From: Haloarchaeobius sp. HME9146
GTDB lineage: Archaea > Halobacteriota > Halobacteria > Halobacteriales > Natrialbaceae
NCBI RefSeq assembly: GCF_025399835.1
Contig: NZ_JAODVR010000002.1
Location: 496,001-560,000 of the forward strand
Reading direction: 5' to 3'
Length of the DNA: 64,000 bases
The position numbers and the translations under genes were made by a program. A model generated the notes under the pieces. It saw nothing but the letters and a program-made list of their open reading frames with translations, was not told the origin of the DNA and did no database searches. This document shows positions 23,835 through 47,233 of the stretch, piece after piece. Numbering within the stretch: the first letter of the stretch is position 1; each line of letters begins with the position of its first letter.

Positions 23835-24024
23835 GCACAAGTGCGAGGTCATATCGCCGAACTCCCTGACGAGGCGGTCGTCCCGGTCACCCGACGGGCG
23901 TAGTCGCTGTAACACTGACCTGACATTCTCCACACCCGTCGGGGGCCCCGTTCGTATTTTCGACGTGATTCCGTGACTGCACAGTTATGGAGAACTTTTC
24001 CCCTTGCTGCGTCTCTGTACTGCC

Positions 24025-25475: not shown

Positions 25476-25558
25476 ACATTTCGTTACAGGCGTAACTCTG
25501 TAACGCCGAGGTGTGTGATACCACGCCACATTTCTGTTGGAGAGCGCCGACACCAGAG

Positions 25559-25566
25559 ATATATCG
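25559..25566 (+). promoter_or_regulatory. TATA box of SMC-related gene
   Basis: GATATATC lies 30 nt before the ATG at 25589, so the gene has its own leaderless promoter although it follows rdfA. Confidence 0.6.
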
Positions 25567-25588
25567 GAGGCCCGTGAAACCTCTAAAA

Positions 25589-31335: not shown

Positions 31336-31614
31336 ATGCACGATACGAACAGCATCGCTATCACGGGGTTGAACGAGAAGCAACAGCGAATACTGACCTA
31401 CCTGTCGACGCAGGCGGGCTACCAGACCTACTTCAAGTCGCGGCTCATCGGGGAAGCAGTCGGCCTGTCGGCGAAGGAGGTCGGCGCGAACCTGGCACAG
31501 ATTCTGCGGAGTAACCGCGACGTCGGGCTCGACATCGAGAAGTGGGGGTACTCCTCGGGCACGACGTGGAAGGTCACGCCGACCGGTGCGGCGGACGTCC
31601 CACAGCGGGCCTGA
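31336..31614 (+). CDS. DUF7123 family winged-helix-like protein
   Basis: 92 residues. The core LNEKQQRILTYLSTQAGYQT, then YFKSRLIGEAVGLSAKEVGA and DIEKWGYSSGTTWKVTP, matches the haloarchaeal DUF7123 pattern as I recall it. The fold looks like a small winged helix, so DNA binding is plausible. The start at 31336 follows a GTGGGGGAA leader; upstream codons do not fit. It sits directly before array B and may act on it (inference). Confidence 0.75.
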   Translation: MHDTNSIAITGLNEKQQRILTYLSTQAGYQTYFKSRLIGEAVGLSAKEVGANLAQILRSNRDVGLDIEKWGYSSGTTWKVTPTGAADVPQRA

Positions 31615-31730: not shown

Positions 31731-31750
31731 CAGTAATTATTCATTATATG
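31731..31750 (+). promoter_or_regulatory. Array B promoter motif, copy 1
   Basis: Divergent copy beginning CAGTAATTATTCATTATATG, 54 nt before the ATG. Confidence 0.7.
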
Positions 31751-31784
31751 TCCGAAACCACCTTGGGTATAGAGTGGAGGAAAC

Positions 31785-32594
31785 ATGGCAGACCTTTCCA
31801 AGCGACAATATCTGAAGTACGCAGGCGCATCTCTTGCTGCTCTCTCCCTCGGCGTGGGCGGGAAACTCGCAGCTGACGGCACACTCCAGTCGAGTGTGAA
31901 GGAGACAACAGAAGTCGCCCCTGCGGCGAAGCCCGGAACCGAAGCCGCCCCTGAACCCATCCTGGGCCCGGCTGGCTACGGTGACATCCTCGACTACGAG
32001 CGCGACGACTACGGGAACATCGAGTTCGACTGGGCGTACCTCTCGTTCGAGACCGAGGACGGCGACGTCGACCTCGACGACGTCGGCGTCGACTTCGAGA
32101 CCGACATCTACAGCGAGCACCTCGAGCTGACCGTCGAGGACAGCGAAGTGTACGTCGACCTCGAGATGAACGACAACGGCGACCAGCTCGAACTGGACAT
32201 CGCGTTCCGCGACGAGTACATCTCGTTCGAGTTCGACTACGGTGAGGTCGAGTTCGAGTCCGACGGCGGTGGCTACCAGTTCGAGGACGACCGCCGCGAC
32301 ATCGAGTACCGCGGACGCTACCTTGACTTCGAGTACGACGAGGACAGCCAGGAACTCGAGATCAAGGGCGCGATCAAGCTCGAACTCGAGACCGACAACG
32401 GGCTGGACTTCGAGTACGCCGACGGCCGCATCGCCATCGACTTCGACACCACGGAGCTCGAGTACGCAGGCGAGGACGTCCTGATGGAGTGGGAATGGCG
32501 CGGTGGCAACCACGGCTACGGCAGCCGGCACTCCGAGGACGAGTTCGAGGCACGCCGCATCGGCCCCGGTGGAGCCTGCCACACGCTCTGCTAG
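31785..32594 (+). CDS. Array B protein 1: exported acidic beta-repeat protein
   Basis: 269 residues. The N-terminus SKRQYLKYAGASLAALSLGV is a Tat-like signal with Lys-Arg in place of Arg-Arg. After a Pro/Ala linker comes the entry motif ILDYERDDYGNIEF. About 190 residues of alternating acidic and hydrophobic/aromatic residues follow, such as FEFDYGEVEFESDGG and LDFEYADGRIAIDFD, which predicts many edge beta-strands. The family tail DEFEARRI is followed by a unique extension with two Cys (GGACHTLC). Function unknown; a surface or matrix role is inferred. Confidence 0.78.
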   Translation: MADLSKRQYLKYAGASLAALSLGVGGKLAADGTLQSSVKETTEVAPAAKPGTEAAPEPILGPAGYGDILDYERDDYGNIEFDWAYLSFETEDGDVDLDDVGVDFETDIYSEHLELTVEDSEVYVDLEMNDNGDQLELDIAFRDEYISFEFDYGEVEFESDGGGYQFEDDRRDIEYRGRYLDFEYDEDSQELEIKGAIKLELETDNGLDFEYADGRIAIDFDTTELEYAGEDVLMEWEWRGGNHGYGSRHSEDEFEARRIGPGGACHTLC

Positions 32595-32793
32595 AACACC
32601 CGCAGCACAGACTGCTGCTCTGACACTCTTTCGACCCCTTTCTTCGAGCACGATTCCAACCGCCGAGCGACGCGGAAACTCTGTACTACTGACGCGCCCG
32701 GTGCCGGTTCCATGACGTGGGACCGGGGAGGCTGTACCCCCGAGTAATCGACCTTCGTCCGCGTACCTCCGTCCGCGGAACGACCGTACTGTC

Positions 32794-32813
32794 CGGTAAT
32801 TTGATAGTTCATT
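32794..32813 (+). promoter_or_regulatory. Array B promoter motif, copy 2
   Basis: CGGTAATTTGATAGTTCATT, 55 nt before the ATG. Confidence 0.75.
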
Positions 32814-32848
32814 ACCTTCCGGTTCTTCTGTTGCTCTGAGGAATCGAT

Positions 32849-33625
32849 ATGGCAGCCCTTTCCAAACGGCAGTATCTGAAGTACGCTGGTGCGTCCCTCG
32901 GCGTCGTCTCGCTCGGTGTCGGCGGGACACTCGCAGCAGGGAGCGCGTTCCAGCCGAGCGTGGAGCAACCGACCGCGAACGTCGAAGAGACCAACGAGGT
33001 AACGCCCGCGGCGAAACCCGACACCGAGGCGGTACCCGAACCGATCATCGGGCCCAGGGGTGTCGGCGAGATACTCGATTACGAGCGCGACGACTACGGG
33101 AACATCGAGTTCGACTGGGAGTTCGTGTCCTTCGAGACCGACGACGGTGACATCGACCTCGACGACGTCGGCGTCGACTTCGAGACAGACCTCGACAGCA
33201 GTTTCATCGAGTTGACCGTCGAGGACAGCGAAGTGTTCGTCGACCTGGAGTTCGACCGCGAGGACAACTACTGCGAGATAGAGATCGCGTTCCGCGAGGA
33301 GTACATCGATTTCGAGTTCGACGCCGGCGACACCGACTTCAAATCGAGCGGGACCGGCTACCAGTACGAGGAGGACAAGCGCGATATCGAGTACAAGGGC
33401 CGCTACCTCGACTTCGAGTACGACGAGGAGAAGGGTGAACTCGAGATAAAGGGTGCCATCAAGCTCGAACTCGAGATAGACAACGGACTGGACTTCGAGT
33501 ACGCCGACGGCCGCATCTTCATCGACTTCGACACCACGGAGCTCGAGTACAGTGGCGAAGGCGTGGCATTCGAGTGGGAGTGGCGTGACGGTGGCGACGA
33601 CGAGTTCGAAGCGCGTCGCTTCTGA
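32849..33625 (+). CDS. Array B protein 2: exported acidic beta-repeat protein
   Basis: 258 residues. The signal is SKRQYLKYAGASLGVVSLGV. The linker is longer and diverged (QPTANVEETNEVTPAAKP). The entry motif ILDYERDDYGNIEF and the beta body are conserved, including TVEDSEVFVDLEFDRED and AIKLELEIDNGLDFEYADGR. One Cys lies in NYCEIE. It ends DDEFEARRF. More diverged than proteins 1, 4, 5 and 6, so it is an older copy. Confidence 0.78.
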   Translation: MAALSKRQYLKYAGASLGVVSLGVGGTLAAGSAFQPSVEQPTANVEETNEVTPAAKPDTEAVPEPIIGPRGVGEILDYERDDYGNIEFDWEFVSFETDDGDIDLDDVGVDFETDLDSSFIELTVEDSEVFVDLEFDREDNYCEIEIAFREEYIDFEFDAGDTDFKSSGTGYQYEEDKRDIEYKGRYLDFEYDEEKGELEIKGAIKLELEIDNGLDFEYADGRIFIDFDTTELEYSGEGVAFEWEWRDGGDDEFEARRF

Positions 33626-33743
33626 GTGGCAGTACCTGTACGAGCGTCCGATTCGCGGTCCTGGGTTTTCGCAGTCGGTTCTATGTCACGGTGTGAACCA
33701 CCGGTTCCAGACCCCGTATCCGACCGGTTACGGAACGACCAAA

Positions 33744-33763
33744 CAGTTATTTGATACTTCATA
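33744..33763 (+). promoter_or_regulatory. Array B promoter motif, copy 3
   Basis: CAGTTATTTGATACTTCATA, 55 nt before the ATG. Confidence 0.78.
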
Positions 33764-33798
33764 CCAGAAGATGGCTAGTCTCCACTCGAGGCACTGAA

Positions 33799-34599
33799 AT
33801 GGCAGACCTTTCCAAACGGCAGTATCTGAAGTATGCAGGCGCGTCCCTCGCCGCCCTCTCGCTGGGCGTCGGTGGCAAGCTCGCCGCGGACGGCTCGTTC
33901 GCCCCCGCGGTCGGTGAGACCTCGCGCGTCGCAGCCGGTGCGAACCCGGAAGCGACGCCGATTCTCCGCAGCGCAGGCATCGGTGACATCCTCGACTACG
34001 AGCGCAAGGACGACGGAGCCATCGAGTTCGACTGGGGCCTGCTCTCGTTCGAAACCGAGAGCGACGGCTCGTTCGAGATAGAGGACCTCGGCGTCGACAT
34101 CGAGGCACTCATCGACGGCGGTGACGACCTGGAAGCTCTCGATATGCGCGTCGAGGACACCGAACTGTACTTCGACCTCGAGATCCTCGAGGACCGCGGT
34201 ATCGACTCCGTCGAGCTGGATTTCGCGTTCCGCGACGAGTGGGTGCAGTTCGAGTTCGACGCTGACGGGCCGAAAGTCGAGTTCGAGTCCGACGGCAGCG
34301 GCCACCAGTTCGAGGCCGAAGACGACAGCCGGGACATCGAGTACATGGGCCGCAACATCAAGTTCGAGTTCCAGGAGACCGACGGTGAGAACTGGGAGCT
34401 CGAGATCACGGGCGCGATTCGGGCCGACATCGAGTGGAACGAAGACGGCGAACTCGACGTCGACTACATCGACGGTCGCATCGCCGTCGACATCGACGTC
34501 GGGTCCCTCGACGTGGAGTACGCGGGCGAGGACGTCATGTTCGAATGGGAGTACGTCGACTACGGCACGGACGACGAGTTCGAAGCCCGTCGTATCTGA
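33799..34599 (+). CDS. Array B protein 3: exported acidic beta-repeat protein
   Basis: 266 residues. The signal is identical in plan (SKRQYLKYAGASLAALSLGV). The linker is distinct (APAVGETSRVAAGANPEA). The entry motif is ILDYERKDDGAIEFDW. The body has insertions relative to siblings (DIEALIDGGDDLEALDM) and ends EWEYVDYGTDDEFEARRI. The ATG was chosen because it is preceded by the same CGAGGCACTGAA leader as in copies 4, 5 and 6; the longer in-frame start would add an unrelated segment. Confidence 0.78.
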   Translation: MADLSKRQYLKYAGASLAALSLGVGGKLAADGSFAPAVGETSRVAAGANPEATPILRSAGIGDILDYERKDDGAIEFDWGLLSFETESDGSFEIEDLGVDIEALIDGGDDLEALDMRVEDTELYFDLEILEDRGIDSVELDFAFRDEWVQFEFDADGPKVEFESDGSGHQFEAEDDSRDIEYMGRNIKFEFQETDGENWELEITGAIRADIEWNEDGELDVDYIDGRIAVDIDVGSLDVEYAGEDVMFEWEYVDYGTDDEFEARRI

Positions 34600-34930
34600 A
34601 CACGTTTCCCGGGGTAGCGACTACCCCGTCCCAACGCAGACAGGCGAAGACCGACCATTCGGACGTAGATATTTTCTCACGCTGAACCGCAGAGCGACAG
34701 CAGTGGAGGCGGGGCTGGTCGCTGGTTCTTTCCGGCGCAACTGCACTGTTCTTCGCGACCCGCGAACCCCAGGCCCGACTACCGAGTGGGCCCGACTACC
34801 AACTGAGCCAGCCGCCCGGGGAGCCCGAGCTGTCGCCCGGTGACCGGGCTCGGGACGAGAACCACGAGCCGGGAATGCGACGTCGCTCGACTACGCCAGG
34901 GGAACTCCCGATGGTAACGAGGCAACGTTT

Positions 34931-34950
34931 TAGTAATTTGATACTTAATG
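34931..34950 (+). promoter_or_regulatory. Array B promoter motif, copy 4
   Basis: TAGTAATTTGATACTTAATG, 55 nt before the ATG. Confidence 0.78.
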
Positions 34951-34985
34951 TCTGAAGCCAGCCTTCGGTAATACGAGGCACTGAA

Positions 34986-35765
34986 ATGGCAGACCTTTCC
35001 AAACGGCAGTATCTGAAGTACGCAGGCGCGTCCGCCGCCGCCCTCTCGCTGGGCGTCGGTGGCAAGCTCGCCGCAGACGGGACGCTCCAGTCGAGCGTCA
35101 AGGAGACGACTGAAGTCGCTCCTGCCGCAAAGCCCGGCACCGATGCCGCGCCCGAGCCGATCTTCGGCCCGGCCGGAGTCGGTGACATCCTCGACTACGA
35201 GCGTGACGACGACGGCAACATCGAGTTCGACTGGGTCTACCTCTCGTTCGAGACCGAGGACGGTGACATCGAACTCGATGACGTCGGTGTCGACCTGGAG
35301 ACGGAGCTCGGCAAGGAACACCTCGAGTTCACCGTCGAGGACAGCGAGGTCTACGTCGACCTCGAGATGAACGACGACGGCGACCAGCTCGAACTGGACA
35401 TCGCGTTCCGCAACGAGTACATCTCGTTCGAGTTCGACTACGGCGACGTCGAGTTCGAGTCCGACGGTGCCGGGTACCACTTCGAGGACGACCGCCGCGA
35501 CGTCGAGTACCGCGGGCGCTTCCTCCGATTCGAGTTCGACGAGGACAGTGGCGAACTCGAGATCAAGGGTGCGATCAACCTCGAGCTGGAAGTCTCGAAC
35601 GGCCTGGACTTCGAGTACGCAGACGGCCGCATCGCCGTCGACCTCGACGAGACCGAGCTGGAGTACGCCGGCGAAGACGTCCTGATGGAGTGGGAATGGC
35701 GCGGCGGCAACCACGGCTACGGCCGGCGGAGCTCGGAAGACGAGTTCGAAGCACGCCGTATCTAA
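34986..35765 (+). CDS. Array B protein 4: exported acidic beta-repeat protein
   Basis: 259 residues, very close to proteins 1, 5 and 6. The signal, the linker LQSSVKETTEVAPAAKPGT and the entry motif ILDYERDDDGNIEFDWVYL are shared. The body includes YISFEFDYGDVEFESDGAG and the end is SSEDEFEARRI. High similarity down to codon level suggests recent duplication or gene conversion. It has its own promoter motif, so it is a single-gene unit. Confidence 0.78.
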   Translation: MADLSKRQYLKYAGASAAALSLGVGGKLAADGTLQSSVKETTEVAPAAKPGTDAAPEPIFGPAGVGDILDYERDDDGNIEFDWVYLSFETEDGDIELDDVGVDLETELGKEHLEFTVEDSEVYVDLEMNDDGDQLELDIAFRNEYISFEFDYGDVEFESDGAGYHFEDDRRDVEYRGRFLRFEFDEDSGELEIKGAINLELEVSNGLDFEYADGRIAVDLDETELEYAGEDVLMEWEWRGGNHGYGRRSSEDEFEARRI

Positions 35766-35991
35766 CTCCCTCGCACCGGGGCTCGTCCGAAGGGATGGGC
35801 CGACAGCGAGTGGTGGCAGCTGTCACCGACGATATTTTTCTGATGTAGCCCGCGAGCGACTGCATCAGTTCGAGACGACCACCGACGAGAGTGAGTCCAG
35901 TTCTCCGGGAGCTGCTCCAGCGACCGGTCCAGCCACCGTCCCTGACATGACTGATTCGGGGTGGTTCCCGAACCGTGACGTAAGGACCAGC

Positions 35992-36011
35992 CAGTAATTT
36001 TATGATTAATA
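35992..36011 (+). promoter_or_regulatory. Array B promoter motif, copy 5
   Basis: CAGTAATTTTATGATTAATA, 55 nt before the ATG; the TTTGATA part is altered. Confidence 0.72.
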
Positions 36012-36046
36012 TTTGATACAGTCTTCTGTATGGTCGAGGCACTGAA

Positions 36047-36826
36047 ATGGCAGACATCAACAAACGACAGTATCTGAAATACGCAGGCGCGTCCCTCGCC
36101 GCTCTCTCGCTGGGCGTCGGTGGGAAACTCGCCGCAGATGGCACACTCCAGTCGAGCGTGAAGGAGACGACAGAAGTCACCCCAGCCGCGAATCCCGGCA
36201 CCGAAGCCGCGCCCGAGCCGATCCTCGGCCCGGCCGGCGTCGGTGACATCCTGGACTACGAGCGCGACGACTACGGCAATATCGAGTTCGACTGGGTCTA
36301 CCTCTCGTTCGAGACCGAGGACGGTGACATCGACCTCGACGACGTCGGTGTAGACCTCGAGACCCACCTGGACGATGGGGACGCCGAGTTCACCGTCGAG
36401 GACAGCGAGGTCTACGTCGACCTCGAGGTGACCGACTTCGGTGAGATGGTGGAACTAGACATCGCGTTCCGTGACGAGTACATCTCCTTCGAGTTCGAGT
36501 ACGGCGACGTGGAGTTCGAATCCGACGGCGGTGGCTACCACTTCGAGGACGACCGCCGCGACGTCGAGTACCGCGGGCGCTACCTCGACTTCGAGTTCGA
36601 AGAGGACAGCCTCGAACTCGAGATCAAGGGCGCGATCAGGCTCGAGCTCGAGATGGAGAACGGGCTGGACTTCGAGTACGCCGACGGCCGCATCGCCGTC
36701 GACCTCGACGAGACCGAACTCGAGTACGCCGGCGAAGACGTCCTCTTCGAGTGGGAATGGCGCGGTGGCAACCACGGCTACGGCCAGAAGCACTCGGAAG
36801 ACGAGTTCGAAGCACGCCGTCTCTAG
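36047..36826 (+). CDS. Array B protein 5: exported acidic beta-repeat protein
   Basis: 259 residues. The signal starts INKRQYLKYAGASLAALSLG, so Asn replaces Ser before Lys-Arg. The linker and entry motif are almost the same as in protein 4. The body has VTDFGEMVELDIAFRDEYIS and ends SEDEFEARRL. The leader before the ATG is CGAGGCACTGAA. It is a near duplicate of protein 4 with changes concentrated in the middle strands. Confidence 0.78.
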   Translation: MADINKRQYLKYAGASLAALSLGVGGKLAADGTLQSSVKETTEVTPAANPGTEAAPEPILGPAGVGDILDYERDDYGNIEFDWVYLSFETEDGDIDLDDVGVDLETHLDDGDAEFTVEDSEVYVDLEVTDFGEMVELDIAFRDEYISFEFEYGDVEFESDGGGYHFEDDRRDVEYRGRYLDFEFEEDSLELEIKGAIRLELEMENGLDFEYADGRIAVDLDETELEYAGEDVLFEWEWRGGNHGYGQKHSEDEFEARRL

Positions 36827-37034
36827 GCCCCCGGCCACACCAGCTACCTGGACGACCCACGAGACGTCTCCCAGGCACATCGTGACCGTCCAGTAGTCGG
36901 GTGTGACGACGAACACGCTCGTCCCACACGCGAGACAGCCAGAGAACGTCGGTACGGCCGGCGACGTGGCCCGGTTCGCAAGCAGTACGTTCCGTTCCTG
37001 CGAGGAATCTCCTCGAGGTTACGTGACGACCTTA

Positions 37035-37054
37035 CAGTTATTTGATGCTTAATA
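37035..37054 (+). promoter_or_regulatory. Array B promoter motif, copy 6
   Basis: CAGTTATTTGATGCTTAATA, 55 nt before the ATG; the closest match to the consensus. Confidence 0.8.
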
Positions 37055-37089
37055 CCCGAAGCTGACTTTCGTTAGAACGAGGCACTGAA

Positions 37090-37842
37090 ATGGCAGACCT
37101 TTCCAAGCGACAGTATCTGAAGTACGCGGGCGCATCTCTGGCAGCACTCTCCCTCGGCGTGGGTGGGAAGCTCGCCGCAGACGGCACGCTCCAGTCGAGC
37201 GTGAAGGAGACCACCGAGGTCGCACCCGCTGCGAAGCCCGGCACCGACGCCGCACCCGAACCGATTCTCGGGCCGGCTAGCTACGGTGACATCCTCGACT
37301 ACGAGCGCGACGACTACGGGAACATCGAGTTCGACTGGGCGTACCTCTCGTTCGAGAGTGACGACGGTGACATCGACCTCGACGACGTCGGCGTCGACTT
37401 CGAGACCGACCTCGACAGCGACTTCCTCGAGCTGACCGTCGAGGACAGCGAGGTCTACGTCGACCTCGAGATGGACGACAACGGCCACCACGTCGAGCTG
37501 GACATCGCGTTCCGCAACGAGTACATCTCGTTCGAGTACGACGACGGTGACGTCGAGTTCGAATCCGACGGCCAGGGTCACCAGTTCGAGGACGACCGCC
37601 GCGACATCGAGTACCGCGGGCGCTTCCTCGACTTCGAATTCGACGAGGACAGTGAAGAACTCGAGATCAAGGGCGCGATCAAGCTCGAGCTCGAGATGGA
37701 CAACGGCCTCGACTTCGAGTACGCCGACGGCCGCATCGCCATCGACTTCGACACCACGGAGCTCGAGTACGCGGGCGAGGACGTCCTGATGGAGTGGGAG
37801 TGGCACAACGGCGACGACGAGTTCGAGGCACGCCGCCTCTAA
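37090..37842 (+). CDS. Array B protein 6: exported acidic beta-repeat protein
   Basis: 250 residues. The N-terminal third is almost the same as protein 1 (signal, SSVKETTEVAPAAKPGT linker, GDILDYERDDYGNIEFDW). It lacks the Gly/Asn/His insert (RGGNHGYG) seen before the tail in proteins 1, 4 and 5, and ends WHNGDDEFEARRL. The insert is therefore modular. The CGAGGCACTGAA leader is present. Confidence 0.78.
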   Translation: MADLSKRQYLKYAGASLAALSLGVGGKLAADGTLQSSVKETTEVAPAAKPGTDAAPEPILGPASYGDILDYERDDYGNIEFDWAYLSFESDDGDIDLDDVGVDFETDLDSDFLELTVEDSEVYVDLEMDDNGHHVELDIAFRNEYISFEYDDGDVEFESDGQGHQFEDDRRDIEYRGRFLDFEFDEDSEELEIKGAIKLELEMDNGLDFEYADGRIAIDFDTTELEYAGEDVLMEWEWHNGDDEFEARRL

Positions 37843-38253
37843 CTCGGATTCCCGACCCCACACCCAACCAAGCCATATCGACTGCTGACACAGCAGACAC
37901 CGGTTTTTTCGACGATTACCTCCAGAGTGACGACCACAGCCGGGACGTCGCATCGGGCCGACCACATTCCAGCGGTGTCCGACCCACGGCCACGTGAGTG
38001 AGCCGAACTCTCCTCACGGTGAGCGAGTAACCCCCTGTTACTGGCACTCCCTCCCGACGAACCCTGCCTCAGCCCCGTGAACGGTCAGCTCCAGTACCGG
38101 AGTAACGGCTCCATCCTTTTGAGTCTGCTCGCGGTGAACGCGGCGAACGACGGGACAACACGGGAGTCTGCCGGAAGCCGTCGCGTACCCATCTCGGGAC
38201 TCGAGCGTACCTCGACCCCCGAGTCGTATCCGGGACGAAACGCACTCACCACC
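37843..38253. other. Spacer inside array B
   Basis: About 400 bp with no supported gene, longer than the other array B spacers. An open frame runs into gene 7 from 38077, but its codons show no signal-like sequence. Confidence 0.4.
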
Positions 38254-38273
38254 CAGTTATTTGATATTTTATC
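38254..38273 (+). promoter_or_regulatory. Array B promoter motif, copy 7
   Basis: CAGTTATTTGATATTTTATC, 57 nt before the ATG at 38311, supporting that start. Confidence 0.75.
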
Positions 38274-38310
38274 GCCGCTGCCTCCCTCGTTACGGGGGAG
38301 AGACTACGCC

Positions 38311-39039
38311 ATGGGAGGCATCTCCAGACGGGAGTACCTGAAGTACACCGGCATCGGGCTCACCGCACTCACGGCCGTCGTCGGCGGAAAGCTCGCTTCC
38401 GACAGCGCGAGAAGCGGAGCCTCCGTGGGTGAAGCGACCCGGTCGGCAGACCTGGCGGAGAGGGCACCGGCGACCCCGTTGGAGAGAGGCGAGAAAGAGA
38501 GTGGTCCGGATGTTGTCGCGGTAGCGCAGGAGGACAGCGTGTCCGGGACGCCGCTGGTCACCGGCGGGGTACAACCCGGCACAGCTCTCGAATTCGACCG
38601 CGCGGATGACGGAGACGTGGATTTCTGGTGGGGTGGCGTCGAGTTCGAGAGCTCGGACGGCGACCGTGACGTCGAGTTCCTCGTCGACGACGGCGACCTC
38701 TACATCGACTTCGAGAGCACGGCGAGCGGGGACGACCTGGAGTTGACCATCCTCTTCGCCGGAGACGGTATCGACCTCGACGTGTACCAGGACGACGAGG
38801 TCGAGGTCGCGACCATCGGTGGCCCCCACTCCTTCGAACACGACCGGGGGCGAATCGAGTACGTCGGCCCGCTCCTCCGGGTCGAGTGGGACCCGCGGAG
38901 GCGCGAACTGGAGGTCCGTGGTGCCGTCCACCTGGACTGGGACGGCGACGAGTTCGAGTACCGGGGCCGGACCGTCAGGATCGACTGGGAGTCAACGACG
39001 CCCGAGCGAACCGGGACGTTCGAGGCTCGCGCGGTGTAG
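38311..39039 (+). CDS. Array B protein 7: diverged exported acidic beta-repeat protein
   Basis: 242 residues. The signal ISRREYLKYTGIGLTALTAV has a true twin arginine, supporting Tat export for the whole family. The linker is unrelated. The entry motif is LEFDRADDGDVDFWWGGVEF, followed by acidic/hydrophobic strands (VEFLVDDGDLYIDFESTASG, LEVRGAVHLDWDGDEFEYRG). It ends TGTFEARAV, a variant tail. Proteins 7-10 form the diverged half of the family with the FWW/FEW entry variant. Confidence 0.77.
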   Translation: MGGISRREYLKYTGIGLTALTAVVGGKLASDSARSGASVGEATRSADLAERAPATPLERGEKESGPDVVAVAQEDSVSGTPLVTGGVQPGTALEFDRADDGDVDFWWGGVEFESSDGDRDVEFLVDDGDLYIDFESTASGDDLELTILFAGDGIDLDVYQDDEVEVATIGGPHSFEHDRGRIEYVGPLLRVEWDPRRRELEVRGAVHLDWDGDEFEYRGRTVRIDWESTTPERTGTFEARAV

Positions 39040-39122
39040 CGTCCCGGGTGTCCGGGGCGACGTACCGTTTCGGTATCTTCACCACCGGGTCGTCCTCTCA
39101 CCCCTGTAACGAGAGGAGTATT

Positions 39123-39142
39123 CAGTTATTTGATGCTTAATG
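39123..39142 (+). promoter_or_regulatory. Array B promoter motif, copy 8
   Basis: CAGTTATTTGATGCTTAATG, 53 nt before the ATG. Confidence 0.78.
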
Positions 39143-39175
39143 TAGAAACCGCGCTTCTCTACTGGCAGGAGGACT

Positions 39176-39883
39176 ATGGCAGACATATCCAAGCGACAGT
39201 ATCTGAAATACGCCGGGGCCTCGCTGGCGGCGGCGACGTTCACACTGGGTGGGAAACTCGCGAGCAACACACTGGCGGCTGACGCACCCGAGTCGACGGT
39301 CACGTCGGCGGCGTCGACCGACACCGGTGGTGACGCGGCCCCCGCAGCCGACCCCCAGCCAGCGAGCCAACCGCTGGTCGGTGCCGCGGCTGGCCCGTAC
39401 CTCGACTACGAGCGTGAGGACAACGGAGACATCGAGTTCTGGTGGGACGGCATCGAGTTCGAGACCGAGAACAACGACCGCGACATCGAGTTCTCGGCCG
39501 CCGAACCCGGCATCTACATCGACTTCGAGACGAAAGACGGCGGCGACCACCTCGACCTGGAGATGGACATCGACGGTGACGTCATCGAGTTCGAGGTCCG
39601 TGGCAACCACGACGTGGACTTCACGGCGGTCGCCGACGGTCGGAAGTTCGAGGACGACGGTGACATCGAGTTCTTCGCCTCCCGACTCAAGTTCGAGTGG
39701 GAACCCGACAACCACCAGCTGGAGATCCGCGGTGCGGTCTACCTCGACTGGGACGGTGACGAGTTCGACTACCGTGGCCGGAACATCCTGCTCGAGTGGG
39801 ACGCCAGTACCCACAACAACCCCGCGTTCGGCGAGTACGACGGGCGGAACGGTGAAGGAAAATTCGAAGCCCGGCGCGTGTAA
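39176..39883 (+). CDS. Array B protein 8: exported acidic beta-repeat protein
   Basis: 235 residues. The signal is ISKRQYLKYAGASLAAATFT. Linker rich in Ala, Ser and Pro. The entry motif is YLDYEREDNGDIEFWWDGIE. Strand-like segments include GIYIDFETKDGGDHLDLEMD and LEIRGAVYLDWDGDEFDYRG. It ends GEGKFEARRV. A GGAGG leader lies directly before the ATG. No Cys is visible in the mature part. Confidence 0.78.
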   Translation: MADISKRQYLKYAGASLAAATFTLGGKLASNTLAADAPESTVTSAASTDTGGDAAPAADPQPASQPLVGAAAGPYLDYEREDNGDIEFWWDGIEFETENNDRDIEFSAAEPGIYIDFETKDGGDHLDLEMDIDGDVIEFEVRGNHDVDFTAVADGRKFEDDGDIEFFASRLKFEWEPDNHQLEIRGAVYLDWDGDEFDYRGRNILLEWDASTHNNPAFGEYDGRNGEGKFEARRV

Positions 39884-39986
39884 CGCCCGCTGACCAGCCT
39901 CCACACCTTTGTTTCGTGAACACTCTTGGTAATCGTAGTCGTACCGGGGTGGTAACGATATGACCCAACCTTACGTCCACACCAGA

Positions 39987-40006
39987 CAGTAATTTGATAC
40001 CTTATA
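39987..40006 (+). promoter_or_regulatory. Array B promoter motif, copy 9
   Basis: CAGTAATTTGATACCTTATA, 56 nt before the ATG. Confidence 0.77.
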
Positions 40007-40042
40007 GCCCATACCCGCCTGGTATACAGTGGAGGCAATTCA

Positions 40043-40819
40043 ATGGCAGCTACTTCGAAGCGGCAGTATCTCAAGTACGCGGGCACAGCGCTCGCAGCAC
40101 TCTCGATGGGCGTCGGCGGGAAACTCGCAGCCGATGGTGCGCTACAGTCGAACGTCGAGAACACGCGCGAGGTGTCCCCGGCCGCGAACCCGGGTGGACA
40201 GGCACCGGCCGCGAGCCCGGGTGGGAGTTCGGCTCCCGAGACACCGGCGGCAAGCCCCGGCCCTGCGGCGGCACCGGCGGACCCCGCCGTCGGCGCGGAC
40301 GAGACGACAGACCCGTATCTCGGTCCGGCCGGAAGCGGCTATCTCCTCGATTACGAGCGTGACGACAACGGTGACGTCGAGTTCGAGTGGGGCGGGCTCA
40401 TGTTCGAGACCCACGACGGCGACCTCGACGTGGAGTTCGAGGTCAACGACTACGGCATCTACATCGAGTTCGAGACCAAAGACGGCGGCGAGAGCGTCGA
40501 GTTGACCGCCGTCGCGGACGGTGACTACATCGACTTCGAGGTCGACCACCTGTACGACGTGGAGTTCGAGGCGGCCTCGGACCTCGGGACCAAGTTCGAG
40601 GACGACGGGAACGAGGTCGAGTACCGCGGCCGGCTCGTCGACTTCGAGTGGGACCCAGAGTCGCTGGAACTCGACCTCAAGATCGCCGGCGCACGCCTGG
40701 AGTGGAGCGCGAAGGACAACTCCACCCGAGAGCTGGAGTACCGCGGCATCGAGGTCCAGATCGAATGGGAGGGCCTCGGCTACCACAGCGACGGTGACTT
40801 CGAGGCTCGACGGCTGTAG
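40043..40819 (+). CDS. Array B protein 9: exported acidic beta-repeat protein
   Basis: 258 residues. The signal is TSKRQYLKYAGTALAALSMG. The longest linker of the main array is Pro/Ala/Gly-rich (PAASPGGSSAPETPAASPGP). The entry motif is LLDYERDDNGDVEFEWGGLM, with strands such as YIEFETKDGGESVELTAVAD. It ends SDGDFEARRL. It is the last tandem copy; the next gene is the PAS/GAF regulator. Confidence 0.78.
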   Translation: MAATSKRQYLKYAGTALAALSMGVGGKLAADGALQSNVENTREVSPAANPGGQAPAASPGGSSAPETPAASPGPAAAPADPAVGADETTDPYLGPAGSGYLLDYERDDNGDVEFEWGGLMFETHDGDLDVEFEVNDYGIYIEFETKDGGESVELTAVADGDYIDFEVDHLYDVEFEAASDLGTKFEDDGNEVEYRGRLVDFEWDPESLELDLKIAGARLEWSAKDNSTRELEYRGIEVQIEWEGLGYHSDGDFEARRL

Positions 40820-40888
40820 GCACGACGCCCCCCTTTCGGTCTGATTCGCTCATTTCTGTGCACCCTTTTTGTCCCTCGGCGTTCTGTG

Positions 40889-40901
40889 TATTATATAAAA
40901 A
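40889..40901 (+). promoter_or_regulatory. TATA-like element before PAS/GAF regulator
   Basis: The AT-rich TATTATATAAAA lies about 80 nt before the proposed TTG start; a leader of 50 nt or more would be implied. Confidence 0.45.
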
Positions 40902-40973
40902 CACGTTGATAACTCAGAATACTACACTTAAGTATCTGAGGAGACTATTGTTACGGGAAGGGGGGGAAGGGGG

Positions 40974-43958
40974 TTGGAAGAGGAAATCAACAGCGACCGC
41001 CCGAGAGAGGAGACTGTTCGTGACACCGACAGGTCCGGGAGTGCCACCGCCTGGCAGGCGCTCACCGAAGCCGGGTTCGGTATCGTCGAAGTAGACGAAT
41101 CCGGCACCATCGTCGGGGCCACACCATCGGTCGCGGACACCCTTGGCTACACACGCGAGCCGCTGGTCGGACAGTCGTCGACGAACCTGTTCACGGAACG
41201 GGACGAGGACGAGGTCCTCGCACTACTCGCGGACCTGGCCGACGACGACACGGTCCGACTGGTTCGTCACCGCCGAAAGAACGGGGAAGAAATCCCCCTA
41301 CCGGTCACCGTCCACCGCGTCGAAACCGACGAACAGGTGTCGTACGTAGAGCTCGTCCGTGATTTCGAGTGGTTCGAGCCCGGCAACGCCACCCTCGCGC
41401 AGGAGGAACCTGCCGAGACCGAGGACGGCCGTGACCAGACCCACGTCGATGTCGAGACGACGACCCCCACGACCGACACCGACGCCACTTCTCCCACCGT
41501 CAGCCCCCCACACGCGGCGCGTCCCGGGAGGACGGAAACAGGGGCCGACGACCTGTATCACGAGCTATTCGAGCAGAGTCGCGACGGAATCGTCGTGGTC
41601 GACACGCGGTCGAACCGGATCATCGAGGCCAACGAGCGCGCCGCGACGTTGTTCGGCTGCTCCCGGGAGGACCTCGTCGGTGAGGCCGCAAGCCAGGCGT
41701 TCGAAACCGGACAGGGCGAGACGACGCTCGCGCGACTCGTCGCCGAGGACGCGAACCGGGACGAGACCGTGGTCTACCGACCGCCCGATGCTGAAGAACG
41801 AACCGTATCGATGGAGAGCCTTGAGCTGGACGACCACGACGGCCATGTCGTGGTGTTCCTTCGGGACGTCACCGACCACCGCCAGCACGAGAGCGAACGG
41901 GCCCGACGAATCGCCGCGATGGACGCCGCCCTGGAGGGAATCGCGGTCCTGGACGACGACAATTGCTTCACGTACGTGAACAGGGAGTTCGCCGCGCTGC
42001 ACGGGACGACCGCGTCCTCCCTCGTCGGCAAAGCGTGGTGCGAGTGCTACTCCGAGGAGGAGTGGCGTCGAATCGCGTGGCAGGTACTCCCCGCCGTCGA
42101 GCACGAGGGGACCTGGCGCGGCGAAGCGACCGGCGTGCGGACCGACGGGGAGACCTTCCCCCAGTCTCTCTCGCTGAGCAAGGTCGATGGCCGGGGCCTC
42201 GTCTGCGTCGTCCACGACATCTCTGAACAGAAACATCACTCTCAGCGGCTCCGCGAGCTCAACGTCGTCACCCACGAACTGGTGACGGCCCACGACGAGG
42301 AGGAGATCGCGACCATCGGGTGCGACGCCGTCACCCGGGTCATCGGACTCCCACTGAACGCGATTCGCCTGTACGACCAGGAAGCCAACGGGCTCGTACT
42401 CGCCGAAGCCCCGGACACGGTGATGGAGGTCCTCGGGCCGCGCCCCGTGTACGACGTGGCGACGACTCCGGCCGGCCGGGCGTTCCGGACCGCAGAGACC
42501 GTCATCACGGTCGTCGACGAAGGCGACCAGTACGGCCGCTATCCCCTGTCGGAGGCCCTGTACGTTCCACTCGGTGACCACGGCGTGCTGAGCGTCGGTA
42601 CCACCGCACGCCACGGGTTCGAACGGGAGCAGGTCGACCTCGCGGAGTTACTCGGCGCGAACCTGACCGTCGCGTTGACGCGGACGAAACGCGACCGACG
42701 GCTCCGGGAGATGCAGGCCGACCTCACCGAGAAACAGGACGTGATGGTCCGCCAGCACGACCAGCAGGAGATACTGCTGGGCATCAGCTCGCTCGTCCAG
42801 GAGATAACGGACGCGACCGTCAACTCCAGAAGCCGAGGTGAGATCGAACAGACCGTCTGTGAGAACATCGCCTCCTCGGAGTTGTACCACTTCGCGTGGA
42901 TCGGCCACTACAGCTTGGGCCGGGGACGAATAGTCCCGCGCGCGGCCGCCGGCCTCGACGAGGGCGTCCTCGACGAGATCGCACAGATCACGCCGACAGA
43001 GGCCGAACGAGGTGCCATAGACAAGGCAATCGAGACCGGTGAGCCACAAGTCGTCCGGTCGGTCGACGGTGAACTCGCCCTGCACGAGCCGGTTCGGCGC
43101 GCCGCGTTCGAACGCGGGTTCGAGGCAGCCATCGCGGTTCCGCTCACCTACGCCGGTCGGAACTACGGCGGGCTGGTCGTCATCGCGAGCCATCCCGACG
43201 CGTTCGGCGAGTTCGAGACGCGGGCGTTCTCGGTCCTCGGCGAACTCGTCGCCTTCGCCATCCGCGCGACGACCGACCGTGAACTCCTGCTCAGTGACTC
43301 GATCATCGAGGTCGAGTTCGAGAGCTCCGACCGGACGGCGACACTGGTCGCACTCTCGAAGGAGATCGGCTGTCGGTTGACCCTGGCTGGCATCGTCGCC
43401 AGCAACACCAACGGCAGGCGGTACTACTACCTCGTCGAGGACGTGCCCGCATCCACCGCCGTCTCGGCACTGTGGCGATACCCCGGCGTCGAGGACGTCG
43501 AGGTCATCAGCGAGCGGGTGGACGAATCGCTCATCGCGGTCGAGCTGTCGAGCGGGTCGCTCGTCCAGTCGCTGGTCGAGTACGGCGTCCGCGTTCGCGA
43601 GCAGATGGTCGCCGACGGTCGGACCACGCTGACCGTGGAGGCACCGACCCAGGACGACGTTCGTGACGTGGTCGAACTCCTCGTCGGCGAGTTCCCCGAG
43701 ACCGACGTCGTCTCCGTCCTCGAACGCGACCGGCCGGTCCGGACGACGAACGAGTGCCGGGACATGCTCCTGGGCGACCTCACCGACCGCCAGCACGCGA
43801 CCCTGCAGACGGCCTACGTCGAGGGGTACTTCGACTGGCCGCGGCGGAGCACTGCGGAGGAGGTCGCGGCGCGACTCGATATCGCGTCCTCGACGTTCCA
43901 CCAGCACGTCCGCATCGCCCTCCAGAAGGTACTCCTCTCACTTTTCGAGCAGGAATAG
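40974..43958 (+). CDS. PAS/GAF sensor regulator with bacterio-opsin activator HTH
   Basis: 994 residues, soluble. Three PAS-like units (ALTEAGFGIVEVDESGTIVG; YHELFEQSRDGIVVVDTRSN; MDAALEGIAVLDDDNCFTYV) are followed by two GAF-like units. Then comes a BAT-type region and a C-terminal HTH_10 (TDRQHATLQTAYVEGYFDWP, then STAEEVAARLDIASSTFHQH). It is a one-component regulator of the Bat/BoxR-like class, probably sensing light, oxygen or redox. An in-frame stop at 40929 and the lack of an ATG make TTG at 40974, after a G-rich ribosome-binding stretch, the best start. It directly follows array B. Confidence 0.85.
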   Translation: MEEEINSDRPREETVRDTDRSGSATAWQALTEAGFGIVEVDESGTIVGATPSVADTLGYTREPLVGQSSTNLFTERDEDEVLALLADLADDDTVRLVRHRRKNGEEIPLPVTVHRVETDEQVSYVELVRDFEWFEPGNATLAQEEPAETEDGRDQTHVDVETTTPTTDTDATSPTVSPPHAARPGRTETGADDLYHELFEQSRDGIVVVDTRSNRIIEANERAATLFGCSREDLVGEAASQAFETGQGETTLARLVAEDANRDETVVYRPPDAEERTVSMESLELDDHDGHVVVFLRDVTDHRQHESERARRIAAMDAALEGIAVLDDDNCFTYVNREFAALHGTTASSLVGKAWCECYSEEEWRRIAWQVLPAVEHEGTWRGEATGVRTDGETFPQSLSLSKVDGRGLVCVVHDISEQKHHSQRLRELNVVTHELVTAHDEEEIATIGCDAVTRVIGLPLNAIRLYDQEANGLVLAEAPDTVMEVLGPRPVYDVATTPAGRAFRTAETVITVVDEGDQYGRYPLSEALYVPLGDHGVLSVGTTARHGFEREQVDLAELLGANLTVALTRTKRDRRLREMQADLTEKQDVMVRQHDQQEILLGISSLVQEITDATVNSRSRGEIEQTVCENIASSELYHFAWIGHYSLGRGRIVPRAAAGLDEGVLDEIAQITPTEAERGAIDKAIETGEPQVVRSVDGELALHEPVRRAAFERGFEAAIAVPLTYAGRNYGGLVVIASHPDAFGEFETRAFSVLGELVAFAIRATTDRELLLSDSIIEVEFESSDRTATLVALSKEIGCRLTLAGIVASNTNGRRYYYLVEDVPASTAVSALWRYPGVEDVEVISERVDESLIAVELSSGSLVQSLVEYGVRVREQMVADGRTTLTVEAPTQDDVRDVVELLVGEFPETDVVSVLERDRPVRTTNECRDMLLGDLTDRQHATLQTAYVEGYFDWPRRSTAEEVAARLDIASSTFHQHVRIALQKVLLSLFEQE

Positions 43959-44257
43959 GCGGATTCCACGCGTCACGACCGTGGTCGTGCCGGAACGACC
44001 GGGTCGTGACCGTCACACCGGCCGATTATCTAATTCCCTGAGAGCTTCGGCTCGGATTCACCGTGAAAACCCGTTTCACATCGGTTTCCCTCGATTGCGT
44101 GAGGCCTCAATCCAAACTATCGGTTTCCACTACCGACTCTTCTAGGTAACACCGCAGGGATTTCTCAGGTTATCAGGAGTATTGTCACGACCGTACCGAG
44201 AGGTGTGGGTTCCTAATTCATAGGGATTCAGGGGTTATATGGTAACGAGAGATCGGC
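43959..44257. other. Intergenic region after PAS/GAF regulator
   Basis: Contains a 6-bp inverted repeat GTGAAA-N5-TTTCAC (44063-44079), possibly a terminator or operator. No gene visible. Confidence 0.4.
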
Positions 44258-44623
44258 ATGAACAGGTCATTTGGCGATTACAATTCGATTCGAGATCGTG
44301 CTGCCGCGGAGGCAGCTGCAAGAGAGTCCTTCGAGAACGCGAACCCGCTAACAGCGGTCGCGACGCTCCTCGGGCGGAAGTGGCACCTCGTCATCCTCGA
44401 CGAGTTGCTGGAAGGGGGGCCCCAGGGGTTCAGTGCACTACAGCGACAGATCGGGGGGATCTCGAGCAAGGTGCTGTCCGAGAGCCTGAGCGACCTCGAA
44501 GAGAAAGAGCTCATCTCACGCGCGGTCGTCTGTGAGAAGCCGTTCCGGGTCGAGTACTCGCTCACCGAGCGGGGGGAGGCACTCCAGCCCGTCATCACGG
44601 CCGCCCGGGAGAGCTCCGTATAG
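44258..44623 (+). CDS. HxlR family transcriptional regulator
   Basis: 121 residues. Winged helix of the HxlR (DUF24) type: LGRKWHLVILDELLEGGPQG, then FSALQRQIGGISSKVLSESL and a wing ending FRVEYSLTERGEAL. It binds DNA as a dimer; the ligand is unknown. It converges with a second HxlR gene at 44.8 kb, and the two share the GFSALxxxIxGxSSKVLSExL core, so they are paralogues. Confidence 0.9.
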   Translation: MNRSFGDYNSIRDRAAAEAAARESFENANPLTAVATLLGRKWHLVILDELLEGGPQGFSALQRQIGGISSKVLSESLSDLEEKELISRAVVCEKPFRVEYSLTERGEALQPVITAARESSV

Positions 44624-44814
44624 CACCGAGACCGACGAGTCGAGTCAACCCTCGTAACGGGCGTGCGACCACTTTTTCGGAGACCAATGTCTGGCAGTGA
44701 GTACCGACTGTCTGTCGTAGGCCGTGTGTCAGGCGACGCTGACGCTGTCGTCGGAACTCCCGGTCAGACTGGCTGTGAAAGTCGAAAAGAAAGAAACCCG
44801 CGTGTGTTCGACGA

Positions 44815-45201
44815 TCAGAACTCCGTCAAGTCCTGCTGTTCTTCGGGGAGCATCTCCGGGACGAGGTGTTTGTCTCCCCACTTGGCCATGCTGTCGATGA
44901 CTGCTTCGAGGTCCTTCCCCCGCTCGGTCAGCGAGTACTCCACCCGGAACGGACGGTCGCTGATGATCCGGCGCTCGACGAGCCCGAGCCGTTCCATCTC
45001 GCTCAGGTTCTCCGAGAGCACCTTGCTGGAGACACCGTATATCTCCTCGCGCAAGGCCGAGAACCCCAGTGCTTCGTTCTTCAGCAGTCGGTGCACAATC
45101 GCTGGCACCCACTTCTTGCCGAGGACGTTACTGGCTGCGGTTATGGAGCACCAGTCGTCGCTCCGATACCAGAGTTCTGATTTTTTTGTCGTCTCCTCCA
45201 T
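44815..45201 (-). CDS. HxlR family transcriptional regulator
   Basis: 128 residues. The HxlR core is CSITAASNVLGKKWVPAIVH, then LGFSALREEIYGVSSKVLSE and RPFRVEYSLTERGKDLEAVI. The single N-terminal Cys in DDWCSI is the position used for redox sensing in some HxlR/YodB proteins. A palindrome sits directly before the start, suggesting autoregulation. It faces the tenth array B gene divergently, so both could share the intergenic control region. Confidence 0.9.
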   Translation of the reverse strand: MEETTKKSELWYRSDDWCSITAASNVLGKKWVPAIVHRLLKNEALGFSALREEIYGVSSKVLSENLSEMERLGLVERRIISDRPFRVEYSLTERGKDLEAVIDSMAKWGDKHLVPEMLPEEQQDLTEF

Positions 45202-45202
45202 A

Positions 45203-45218
45203 CACTAGAGGTCTAGTG
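45203..45218 (-). promoter_or_regulatory. Palindromic operator candidate before HxlR gene
   Basis: CACTAGA-GG-TCTAGTG ends 2 nt before the start codon and lies downstream of a TTTTTAG TATA-like element, where it would cover the transcription start. Confidence 0.6.
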
Positions 45219-45390
45219 CTGATTAGCTAAAAAGCGACCCCCGTGCGCGCGAGTCTTTAGTGATTACTTGACACTCATGGTGTCCTCGGTCGTCTGAGGG
45301 TTCGCCCGCATCGTAACCACCTCACTGTAAGCTCAGACCCCTTCGTGTGCGTAGGGACCGCACCGGGGACGCTGGTTATTACCTGCCAGG

Positions 45391-45408
45391 TAGTTGATTG
45401 TTTATTGC
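45391..45408 (+). promoter_or_regulatory. Array B promoter motif, copy 10 (degenerate)
   Basis: TAGTTGATTGTTTATTGC resembles the array B motif with a deletion, 48 nt before the ATG. Confidence 0.5.
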
Positions 45409-45438
45409 CGGCACTGGCCTATTTTCGGATGGTAGAGT

Positions 45439-46350
45439 ATGGAGGAACTTGACCAACTTACGAAGCGTGATTACCTGAAGCTAGCAGGAGCTTCTCTCGG
45501 TGCGCTCGCGCTCGCGACTGGTGGCTTGCTCATCTCGAACAACAAGCCAGCTGCGACCGGCGACCCCGGGACGAATCCCGACGTGACCCCGCCCGTCCCG
45601 GGCGGTGGGTCCGGCGGTGTTGGCGGCGGCGGTGGCCCTGGCGGCGATGGGGGCTCCGGCGGCGTCGACGGCGGTGGCGGCGGCCCCGGCGGTGATGGGG
45701 GCTCCGGCGGCGTCGATGGTGGCGGCGGCGGCCCCGGCGGTGACGGGGGCTCCGGCGGCGTCGACGGTGGCAGCGGCGGCCCCGGTGGCGACGGTGGGTC
45801 CGGCGGCGTCGGTGACCCCGGCGACGGTGGGTCCGGCGGCGTCGGTGACCCAGGAGACGGTGGCTCGCCCGGTCACGGTGGCCCCGGCGGCTACGTCTCG
45901 GGCGACCTGCTCGACTACGAACGCGACGACAACGGTGACATCGACTTCACCTGGGACGGCCTGGAGTTCGAGACCTCGAACAACGACCGGGACCTCGAGT
46001 TCACGGTCGTGACGCCGGACTACTACGTCGACCTCGAAGTCGACGACGCCGGTGACGGCGTCGAACTCACCGTCGAGAGCCGGACCGACTACATGGACCT
46101 GGACGTCGACTACGACGACGTCGAGTTCGAGTCCGACGGTGGCGGCTACGAGTTCGAGGACGACCACGGCGAGATCGAGTACCGCGGCGTGTACACCCAT
46201 CTCGAATGGGACCCGGACAAGCGCGAACTCGAAGTGAAGGGGCTGTTCAAGCTCGACTACGACGGCGACAACCTCGAACTCGAATTCCGTGGTGTCGGCG
46301 TCAAACTCGAATGGGAGAGTGAAGGTGACTTCGAAGCCCGGCTCCTCTGA
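45439..46350 (+). CDS. Array B protein 10 (detached): acidic beta-repeat protein with Gly-rich linker
   Basis: 303 residues. The signal is LTKRDYLKLAGASLGALALA. The linker is expanded into a Gly/Ser/Asp repeat (GGGGPGGDGGSGGVDGG units, about 110 residues). Then come the family entry motif LLDYERDDNGDIDFTWDGLE, beta strands (VEFESDGGGYEFEDDHGEIE) and the tail GDFEARLL. It is separated from array B by the regulator genes. Its 3' end overlaps the next gene, unlike any other copy. Confidence 0.78.
   Translation: MEELDQLTKRDYLKLAGASLGALALATGGLLISNNKPAATGDPGTNPDVTPPVPGGGSGGVGGGGGPGGDGGSGGVDGGGGGPGGDGGSGGVDGGGGGPGGDGGSGGVDGGSGGPGGDGGSGGVGDPGDGGSGGVGDPGDGGSPGHGGPGGYVSGDLLDYERDDNGDIDFTWDGLEFETSNNDRDLEFTVVTPDYYVDLEVDDAGDGVELTVESRTDYMDLDVDYDDVEFESDGGGYEFEDDHGEIEYRGVYTHLEWDPDKRELEVKGLFKLDYDGDNLELEFRGVGVKLEWESEGDFEARLL
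45601..45890 (+). repeat. Gly-rich codon repeat in array B gene 10
   Basis: Tandem GGTGGCGGCGGCCCCGGCGG-like units encode the GGDGGSGGVDGG linker. The units vary slightly, and those near 45800-45850 are shorter. Confidence 0.75.
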
Positions 46351-47233
46351 GGAGCGCGGGGAGTCGTTCATCGAGCGGCTCCACCGCGGGCTGATCGGCG
46401 ATGCGAGTGCCGCCTCGGAAGACCGAGACGAGACAGCGTCGCGGCCGCCCGCGGACGCGCCGGACTCGGACGAGACGGCGACCAGTGCCCCTGACATGGA
46501 CGGGTCGTCGGACTCCGAGCCGAGCGATGAGAGCGAAGCCGACGGTATCAGCTTCGCCTTCGAGGACGACGCTGCGCCGGAACCGAGCCAGCGCCGGAAG
46601 GTCGGTGCGGACGAGGACGACGAGCCGGACGACCCGGACGAAGCCTCCGCTCCTGACGGCGACGACACGTGGCAGCAACTCGCGGAGGACGAGGCCGACC
46701 GTGACCACGCCCCCACCGACCCCGTCGGTGCGGTCAGCGACGGTCCGGTGACCGCGTCGACTCGCAGTGCTGTCGCGGCGACCGTCTCCGAGAGCGTCGC
46801 CGAGACGCTCGCGGCGGAGTTGACCGCGGGACGCGTCGACGACGGGACGAAGGAGGTGCTCGAATCGCACCTCGGTGTCGGCGTCGACACGGCCGTCAGC
46901 GCGCAGATAAAGCGGTTGAACGACCGCATCCTCGCGCTGGAGACGTACGCAGACGTGCTCGAGACGGAACTCGCAGGTTCCGTCGCCGACGAGCAGCTCG
47001 CGACCCGCGTCGCCGACATGGACGACCGCGTCGACCGCCTCGAACGCTCGATGCGCGAGGCGATGGTGACCGTCTCCGAGGGCGTCGACCGTGTGGACGG
47101 CGAGGTCCGGAGCGTTGACGCGAAAGTCGACGAGACGCGCCGTGCGGTGACCGAACTCCAGGGATGGCAGCGAAAGCTTGCCGACTCGATGGCGACAGCA
47201 GCGCGAGTCACACCCGACGAACCGTCGGAGTGA
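46319..47233 (+). CDS. Acidic coiled-coil protein overlapping array B gene 10
   Basis: About 304 residues with no ATG near the start. GTG codons at 46289, 46319 and 46325 are possible, and all overlap the end of the previous gene, which suggests translational coupling. The N-terminal half is disordered and Asp/Glu/Ala/Pro-rich. The C-terminal half is coiled coil (RVADMDDRVDRLERSMREAM and VDRVDGEVRSVDAKVDETRR). No signal or catalytic motif. It is probably a cytoplasmic partner or scaffold; the family is not recognised. Confidence 0.7.
   Translation: MKVTSKPGSSEERGESFIERLHRGLIGDASAASEDRDETASRPPADAPDSDETATSAPDMDGSSDSEPSDESEADGISFAFEDDAAPEPSQRRKVGADEDDEPDDPDEASAPDGDDTWQQLAEDEADRDHAPTDPVGAVSDGPVTASTRSAVAATVSESVAETLAAELTAGRVDDGTKEVLESHLGVGVDTAVSAQIKRLNDRILALETYADVLETELAGSVADEQLATRVADMDDRVDRLERSMREAMVTVSEGVDRVDGEVRSVDAKVDETRRAVTELQGWQRKLADSMATAARVTPDEPSE

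Follow-up and report, generated by a model that had tools for sequence, protein, structure and literature searches.

Ten paralogous, acidic and predicted all-beta proteins with Tat-type signals and a shared promoter motif in a conserved haloarchaeal island

The DNA analyzed here (hereafter the window) is a 64,000-nucleotide stretch of Haloarchaeobius sp. HME9146 that sits on a 675-kb contig of the genome, not on the 3.49-Mb one. Ten paralogous open reading frames (ORFs) of 235 to 303 residues each lie on its plus strand between positions 31785 and 46350, and they share one layout: a signal of the twin-arginine translocation (Tat) type, a Pro/Ala/Gly/Ser linker of approximately 30 to 125 residues and a C-terminal strand domain. 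An earlier note, made from the sequence, had drawn the array as the interval 31731 to 46350; the ten members are present there, but the interval also holds three genes outside the family, namely a Bat-type regulator and two HxlR genes. The members are as follows.

31785–32594, plus strand: member 1, long form, extending beyond the usual C-terminus
32849–33625, plus strand: member 2, long form
33799–34599, plus strand: member 3, long form
34986–35765, plus strand: member 4, long form
36047–36826, plus strand: member 5, long form
37090–37842, plus strand: member 6, long form, modeled core with 19 strands
38311–39039, plus strand: member 7, short form, RR signal
39176–39883, plus strand: member 8, short form, modeled core with 15 strands
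40043–40819, plus strand: member 9, short form
45439–46350, plus strand: member 10, short form, Gly-rich GGPGGDGGSGG linker

Member 1 (31785–32594) has lost the usual stop codon, and GPGGACHTLC is added after FEARRI.

Whole-length alignment of the ten members identifies positions conserved with no or almost no exception: R7, Y9, L10 and K11 in the signal, the entry motif of the strand domain (L-D-Y-E-R-D-D-x-G-x-I-E-F), a central F-E-D-D and a C-terminal F-E-A-R. The entry motif, which the earlier note had recognized in the shorter form DYERDD-x-G-x-IEF, reads LDYERDD.G.IEF in most members and LEFDRADDGDVDF in the seventh. The core of alternating acidic and hydrophobic residues spans 146 to 202 residues, and in all ten members the alternation lies 6.3 to 8.0 standard deviations above residue-shuffled, composition-matched controls; the strict alternation over about 190 residues proposed earlier is thus real as a statistical pattern, but it is distributed over 15 to 19 short strands with turns and is not an unbroken ladder. 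Mature members carry a net charge of −34 to −59, and several of the long forms are near-identical to one another. In ten syntenic pairs with the sister species (genome G282), the ratio of nonsynonymous to synonymous substitution rates (dN/dS) of the core was 0.05 to 0.39. Purifying selection of this strength in syntenic copies indicates that all ten ORFs are real, selected proteins and not an artefact of composition.

The Tat arrangement (S/T-R-R-x-F/Y-L-K type followed by a hydrophobic stretch) is present throughout, as had been proposed, and the NCBIfam and Pfam Tat models match it weakly. The description of the signal as KR or RR holds with an uneven split, Lys-Arg being found in nine of the ten members and Arg-Arg solely in the one at 38311 (member 7). 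Divergent relatives carry canonical SRRxYL signals, which supports Tat targeting of the KR forms. Direct reading of the member sequences found no lipobox Cys near the signal, no sortase-type tail and no C-terminal membrane helix; the proteins end in FEARR-like tails and do not resemble lipoproteins or surface proteins of the PGF-CTERM/S-layer type.

The regions upstream of the members share a 19-bp motif, CAGTWATTTGATNNTTNAT, located 52 to 57 bp before the start codon. Allowing up to two mismatches, the motif has nine matches in the whole 4.19 Mb genome, and all nine lie upstream of members 2 to 10; none would be expected within the window by chance. The corresponding region of member 1 holds a diverged copy, CAGTAATTATTCATTATAT. 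The positions are listed here.

31731–31749, plus strand: diverged promoter copy of member 1, position counted from the sequence
32794–32812, plus strand: private promoter element of member 2
33744–33762, plus strand: private promoter element of member 3
34931–34949, plus strand: private promoter element of member 4
35992–36010, plus strand: private promoter element of member 5
37035–37053, plus strand: private promoter element of member 6
38254–38272, plus strand: private promoter element of member 7
39123–39141, plus strand: private promoter element of member 8
39987–40005, plus strand: private promoter element of member 9
45387–45405, plus strand: private promoter element of member 10, with two mismatches

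Since the motif precedes each gene, each member probably has its own promoter of one private type, and a single signal would then raise all copies at once. A relaxed form of the motif is found approximately 55 bp upstream of four members in Halobium and of one in Halomarina. Judged from sequence, export and co-regulation of the members are well supported. An RNA hairpin in the 5′ leader, suspected by eye, was rejected because folding energies were close to those of shuffled controls (z approximately −1.8 to 1.2), and the window contains no tRNA or Rfam elements.

AlphaFold2 was run on 16-row alignments for one long core (member 6) and one short core (member 8), giving a predicted local distance difference test score (pLDDT) of 91.0, a predicted template modeling score (pTM) of 0.86 and 19 strands for the former, and values of 90.5, 0.85 and 15 strands for the latter. 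Both models are all-beta, in line with the long beta structure that had been anticipated, and comprise strands of approximately 4 to 8 residues joined mostly by tight turns. A strand-by-strand check found each strand to be amphipathic, with acidic residues on one side and hydrophobic or aromatic residues on the other, so that the acidic ladders foreseen earlier would form one face only of the predicted sheet. The fold is apparently an antiparallel meander and not a beta-helix, an assignment that draws on the list of fold matches and the pattern of turns. Compared with the short forms, each long form has two additional inserts of two strands. One lies towards the N-terminus of the core and the other towards its C-terminus, and their positions along the meander are roughly mirror images. 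Both inserts are present or both are absent in 33 of 33 members compared, and from this pairing at mirror places we infer a sheet folded over on itself with its termini together. The tree needs only about three changes between long and short forms, and as few as one is not excluded, so the co-occurrence may reflect few evolutionary events.

Searches against PDB and viral structure libraries gave no match at an E value of 0.001, the best having an E value of 8.6e-3 and template modeling (TM) scores reaching at most 0.37. The best PDB fold matches, none of them significant, are freestanding or single-layer antiparallel meanders, and no beta-helix was recognized among the matches listed. For the long form the best solved match is the TCP10/G-box domain of CPAP/SAS-4 (PDB ID: 4bxp, E value 8.6e-3, probability 0.99), described as an open meander in which ∼20 antiparallel strands follow one another (PMC3776556). 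However, the TM score is 0.30 to 0.32, the sequences are unrelated, and the TCP domain lacks a hydrophobic core, whereas the strands of the exported, acidic, archaeal members have a hydrophobic face. Most of the best matches of the short form are to OspA of Borrelia, likewise an antiparallel meander of short strands, but these are not significant (E value of at least 0.02, TM score ∼0.3) and OspA is a lipoprotein from another lineage.

No member in the window scored above cut-off in Pfam or NCBIfam, and sequence searches of the PDB returned no significant match; the view that the family is unlike any known one has therefore held, and neither the sequence nor the fold searches found an enzyme or transporter fold. 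Profile searches beyond the locus, proposed earlier as a check, identified relatives in few genomes (about five of 392), where matches covering only approximately the first 100 positions were left out of the count. Clear matches occur in one of the five other genomes of the genus, in Halobium salinum, in Halomarina sp. BCD28 (on plasmid and chromosome) and, as one copy, in genome G351; genome G287 has weak relatives only. An eleventh, divergent copy lies on the main chromosomal contig of the window genome. A phage or IMG/VR origin was rejected, since searches of phage and viral collections turned up no relative. Other haloarchaea encode long, acidic, exported repeat proteins (for example L069:3857–4864 and L050:2152–3315) that resemble the members in having a signal, alternation, clustering and HxlR genes in the same regions, but they are longer, carry Sec-like and not Tat-type signals and give much weaker family scores; the resemblance may be convergent in composition. 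These regions (L069:3857–8805 and L050:15–6962) encode acidic alternating repeat proteins of up to approximately 400 residues, most with Sec-like signals and with HxlR genes nearby. Beside the Halomarina and Halobium relatives lie genes for helical, apparently coiled-coil proteins with Tat-like signals (L052:14351–15196 and L047:3765–4622). In the libraries and literature searched, no counterpart was found to the family, its predicted architecture or the private-promoter island, although the members may still work as an ordinary structural surface protein does.

The array is part of a larger conserved island. The window genome, the sister species and Halobium share one gene order: TatA, an Hvo_1808 protein, Lon, genes of a first array (array 1), the gene at 24004–24768, TFB (transcription factor B), DUF63, the acidic array (array 2) with DUF7123, the Bat-type regulator, two HxlR genes and member 10. 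Halobium has its DUF7123 gene within the array and keeps a DUF63-like gene and subtilases after member 10; many of the island genes recur on the Halomarina plasmid, but ordered differently. The island genes and their neighbors in the window are the following.

7054–7623, minus strand: MsrA, named after its annotated counterpart in Halomarina, kept in the sister species and Halomarina
9550–9915, minus strand: additional TatA that four sibling species lacking the array do not have
10047–12014, minus strand: surface protein of the Hvo_1808 family
12082–14109, plus strand: Lon protease of the island, additional to the chromosomal copy
15175–23834, plus strand: array 1, eleven Tat-signal proteins, mostly basic and Arg/Tyr-rich, with their own private motif
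24004–24768, plus strand: island gene kept in the sister species and Halobium (candidate label, DUF192-type by eye)
24846–25475, plus strand: RdfA-family protein beside an SMC-like gene (25511–27538)
28162–29121, plus strand: island TFB
29761–30669, minus strand: DUF63 membrane protein
31336–31614, plus strand: small DUF7123 protein
40974–43958, plus strand: island-conserved Bat-type sensor-regulator (PAS, GAF, BAT, HTH_10)
44258–44623, plus strand: HxlR-type winged-helix regulator 1
44815–45201, minus strand: HxlR-type winged-helix regulator 2
46349–47233, plus strand: coiled-coil protein directly after member 10
47282–48409, plus strand: DUF63-like membrane protein (24.9 bits against a cut-off of 25)

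A second TFB gene lies near the left end of the window (2319–3371), and the minus strand at 50341–52749 encodes a subtilase with a fibronectin type III match and the Tat-like signal RISRRRILQSIGGG, homologs of which follow the Halobium island.

The extra TatA occurs in all four array-bearing loci, whereas the four sibling species without the array have two TatA only, and extra TatC genes lie in the island of Halobium and Halomarina. The window genome, the sister species and Halobium each have a second Lon in the island. A different Lon-type gene is likewise present as a second copy in one sibling lacking the array. RdfA has an SMC-like neighbor in the window genome and in Halomarina, and RdfA is also present in the sister species. 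RdfA likewise stands next to an SMC-like gene in the cell-shape (RdfA/Sph3) locus of Haloferax volcanii (PMC10869688), but here the pair accompanies exported arrays and Tat and Lon genes, and the Halobium stretch searched yielded no RdfA. A defense system was considered and rejected, as PADLOC, on the proteins tested, gave only generic SMC/ATPase-type matches of the SMC-like protein.

The proteins of array 1 differ in composition: the mature regions of nine of the eleven have an isoelectric point of 7.6 to 11.6 and are rich in Arg, Tyr and Gly, while two are acidic. Their motif, CAACTTSGTGGTANNNNNGTAAC, is distinct from that of the acidic array, and its nine genome-wide matches all fall within array 1. 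PCADVDPCAD repeats occur in two of these proteins and RRRRDDDD repeats in one. A YERD...DG/GDI/VE motif is also present in two of the proteins, to which the array-2 profile gives weak scores. Eight array-1 copies adjoin array 2 in the sister species, and the corresponding place of the Halobium island holds one candidate; matches beyond these three genomes mostly span the Tat signal alone and were left uncounted. The link to this basic array, the private promoter and the conserved island are new beyond the earlier note.

Taking these observations together, we put at about even the chance that the island is an inducible, dedicated-Tat secretion program for an acidic cell-surface coat or matrix. 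A signal would be perceived by the Bat-type sensor, the HxlR pair or both, switching the promoter class, which is perhaps read by the island TFB; the ten acidic proteins would fold in the cytoplasm and then leave by Tat, helped by the extra Tat parts, and would be held by their flexible linkers on or close to the cell surface, forming part of a coat or matrix. The acidic face would suit high salt and cations, and the hydrophobic face would be buried, probably by the sheet folding over, bringing the N-terminal YER strand near the C-terminal FEAR strand. This reading is supported by the signals, the extra Tat genes, the all-beta models, the promoter, synteny, Lon, purifying selection and the basic array. 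The coat step itself is proposed on the grounds of copy number, composition and context, together with the lack of any enzyme or transporter fold. The reading of the motif by a particular regulator, burial of the hydrophobic face, retention at the surface and a structural role are likewise inferences. The material or adhesive role suggested earlier is plausible and has support from its context (promoters, Tat, Lon and the basic array), but assembly and adhesion would be further steps. Several points weigh on the other side: no cross-linking or surface-anchoring gene was identified, the parts of Halomarina that were read showed no basic array, the KR for RR in most copies weakens the signal argument for those copies taken alone, and, if the fold is packed in two layers, the members could be soluble binding proteins. 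As a possible but more doubtful variant, the extracellular material would have two parts, the mostly basic, Arg/Tyr-rich and probably disordered array-1 proteins and the acidic beta-meander array-2 proteins, both exported by Tat with parts encoded in the island, under two private promoters and joined outside through charge and cation-pi contacts, possibly with a shared YERDxDGxIEF strand; the island Lon and the subtilase would then serve quality control and remodeling.

The binding-protein alternative would make the members extracytoplasmic carriers, flattened barrels closed from the amphipathic sheet, with a hydrophobic interior holding a lipid, quinone or other hydrophobic ligand that differs between paralogues. 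An aromatic or aliphatic face on every strand is consistent with it, as are the invariably paired distant inserts, expected if they face or abut in a folded-over sheet, and the presence of HxlR regulators and MsrA points to sensing of redox state or toxicants. We consider it unlikely, however: no lipocalin, LolA or other carrier fold is among the matches listed, no transporter gene was identified in the island, the near-identical long forms argue for dosage over ligand diversity, and the insert pairing may reflect the few form changes on the tree. Somewhat less likely still is that the proteins are divergent Toastrack (DUF4097, PF13349) scaffolds or sensors in an envelope-stress response. Short repetitive beta strands and an envelope context are common to both, DUF4097 is matched weakly by five of 18 family members (best E value 1.7e-5), one Halomarina relative is annotated as DUF4097, and a chromosomal Halomarina relative, the best tabulated, reaches 21.4 bits against a cut-off of 22.9. 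Yet DGDVEV-type repeats can match by composition, and the window members give no DUF4097 match even at an E value of 10. The Toastrack fold is a right-handed beta-helix with a predicted intracellular location (PMC11237479), whereas the window members carry export signals, score below the curated cut-off and model as a meander with no beta-helix among the fold matches listed.

We give only a slight probability to a cation buffer or mineral-interacting function, in which the acidic face would bind Ca or Mg at the surface. The net charge of the mature proteins would suit it, but acidic surfaces are general in haloarchaeal proteins, and alternation alone was seen, with no conserved EF-hand-like site. 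Asp-rich secreted proteins gained in spore-forming haloarchaea and proposed to bind Ca offer a precedent (PMC10067837). It is highly improbable that the array encodes diversified, secreted halocin-like antagonists of other haloarchaea: the lineage-sporadic distribution on secondary replicons would agree with this, and some halocins are exported by Tat, but no immunity-like gene is obvious beside each copy, and strong purifying selection, syntenic conservation and several near-identical copies argue against it.

If the interpretation of an inducible surface coat or matrix is correct, some haloarchaea would carry, largely on secondary replicons, a self-contained and regulated surface-material island equipped with a protease, additional export parts and a promoter specificity of its own, placed in some lineages beside cell-shape factors, and its products would have a predicted all-beta architecture with no PDB match. 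The private motifs would make the inducing signal findable with a simple reporter, and the system would serve as a naturally occurring case in which to test how the Tat pathway handles bulk export, and as a genetically tractable model for a protein material that is stable in salt.

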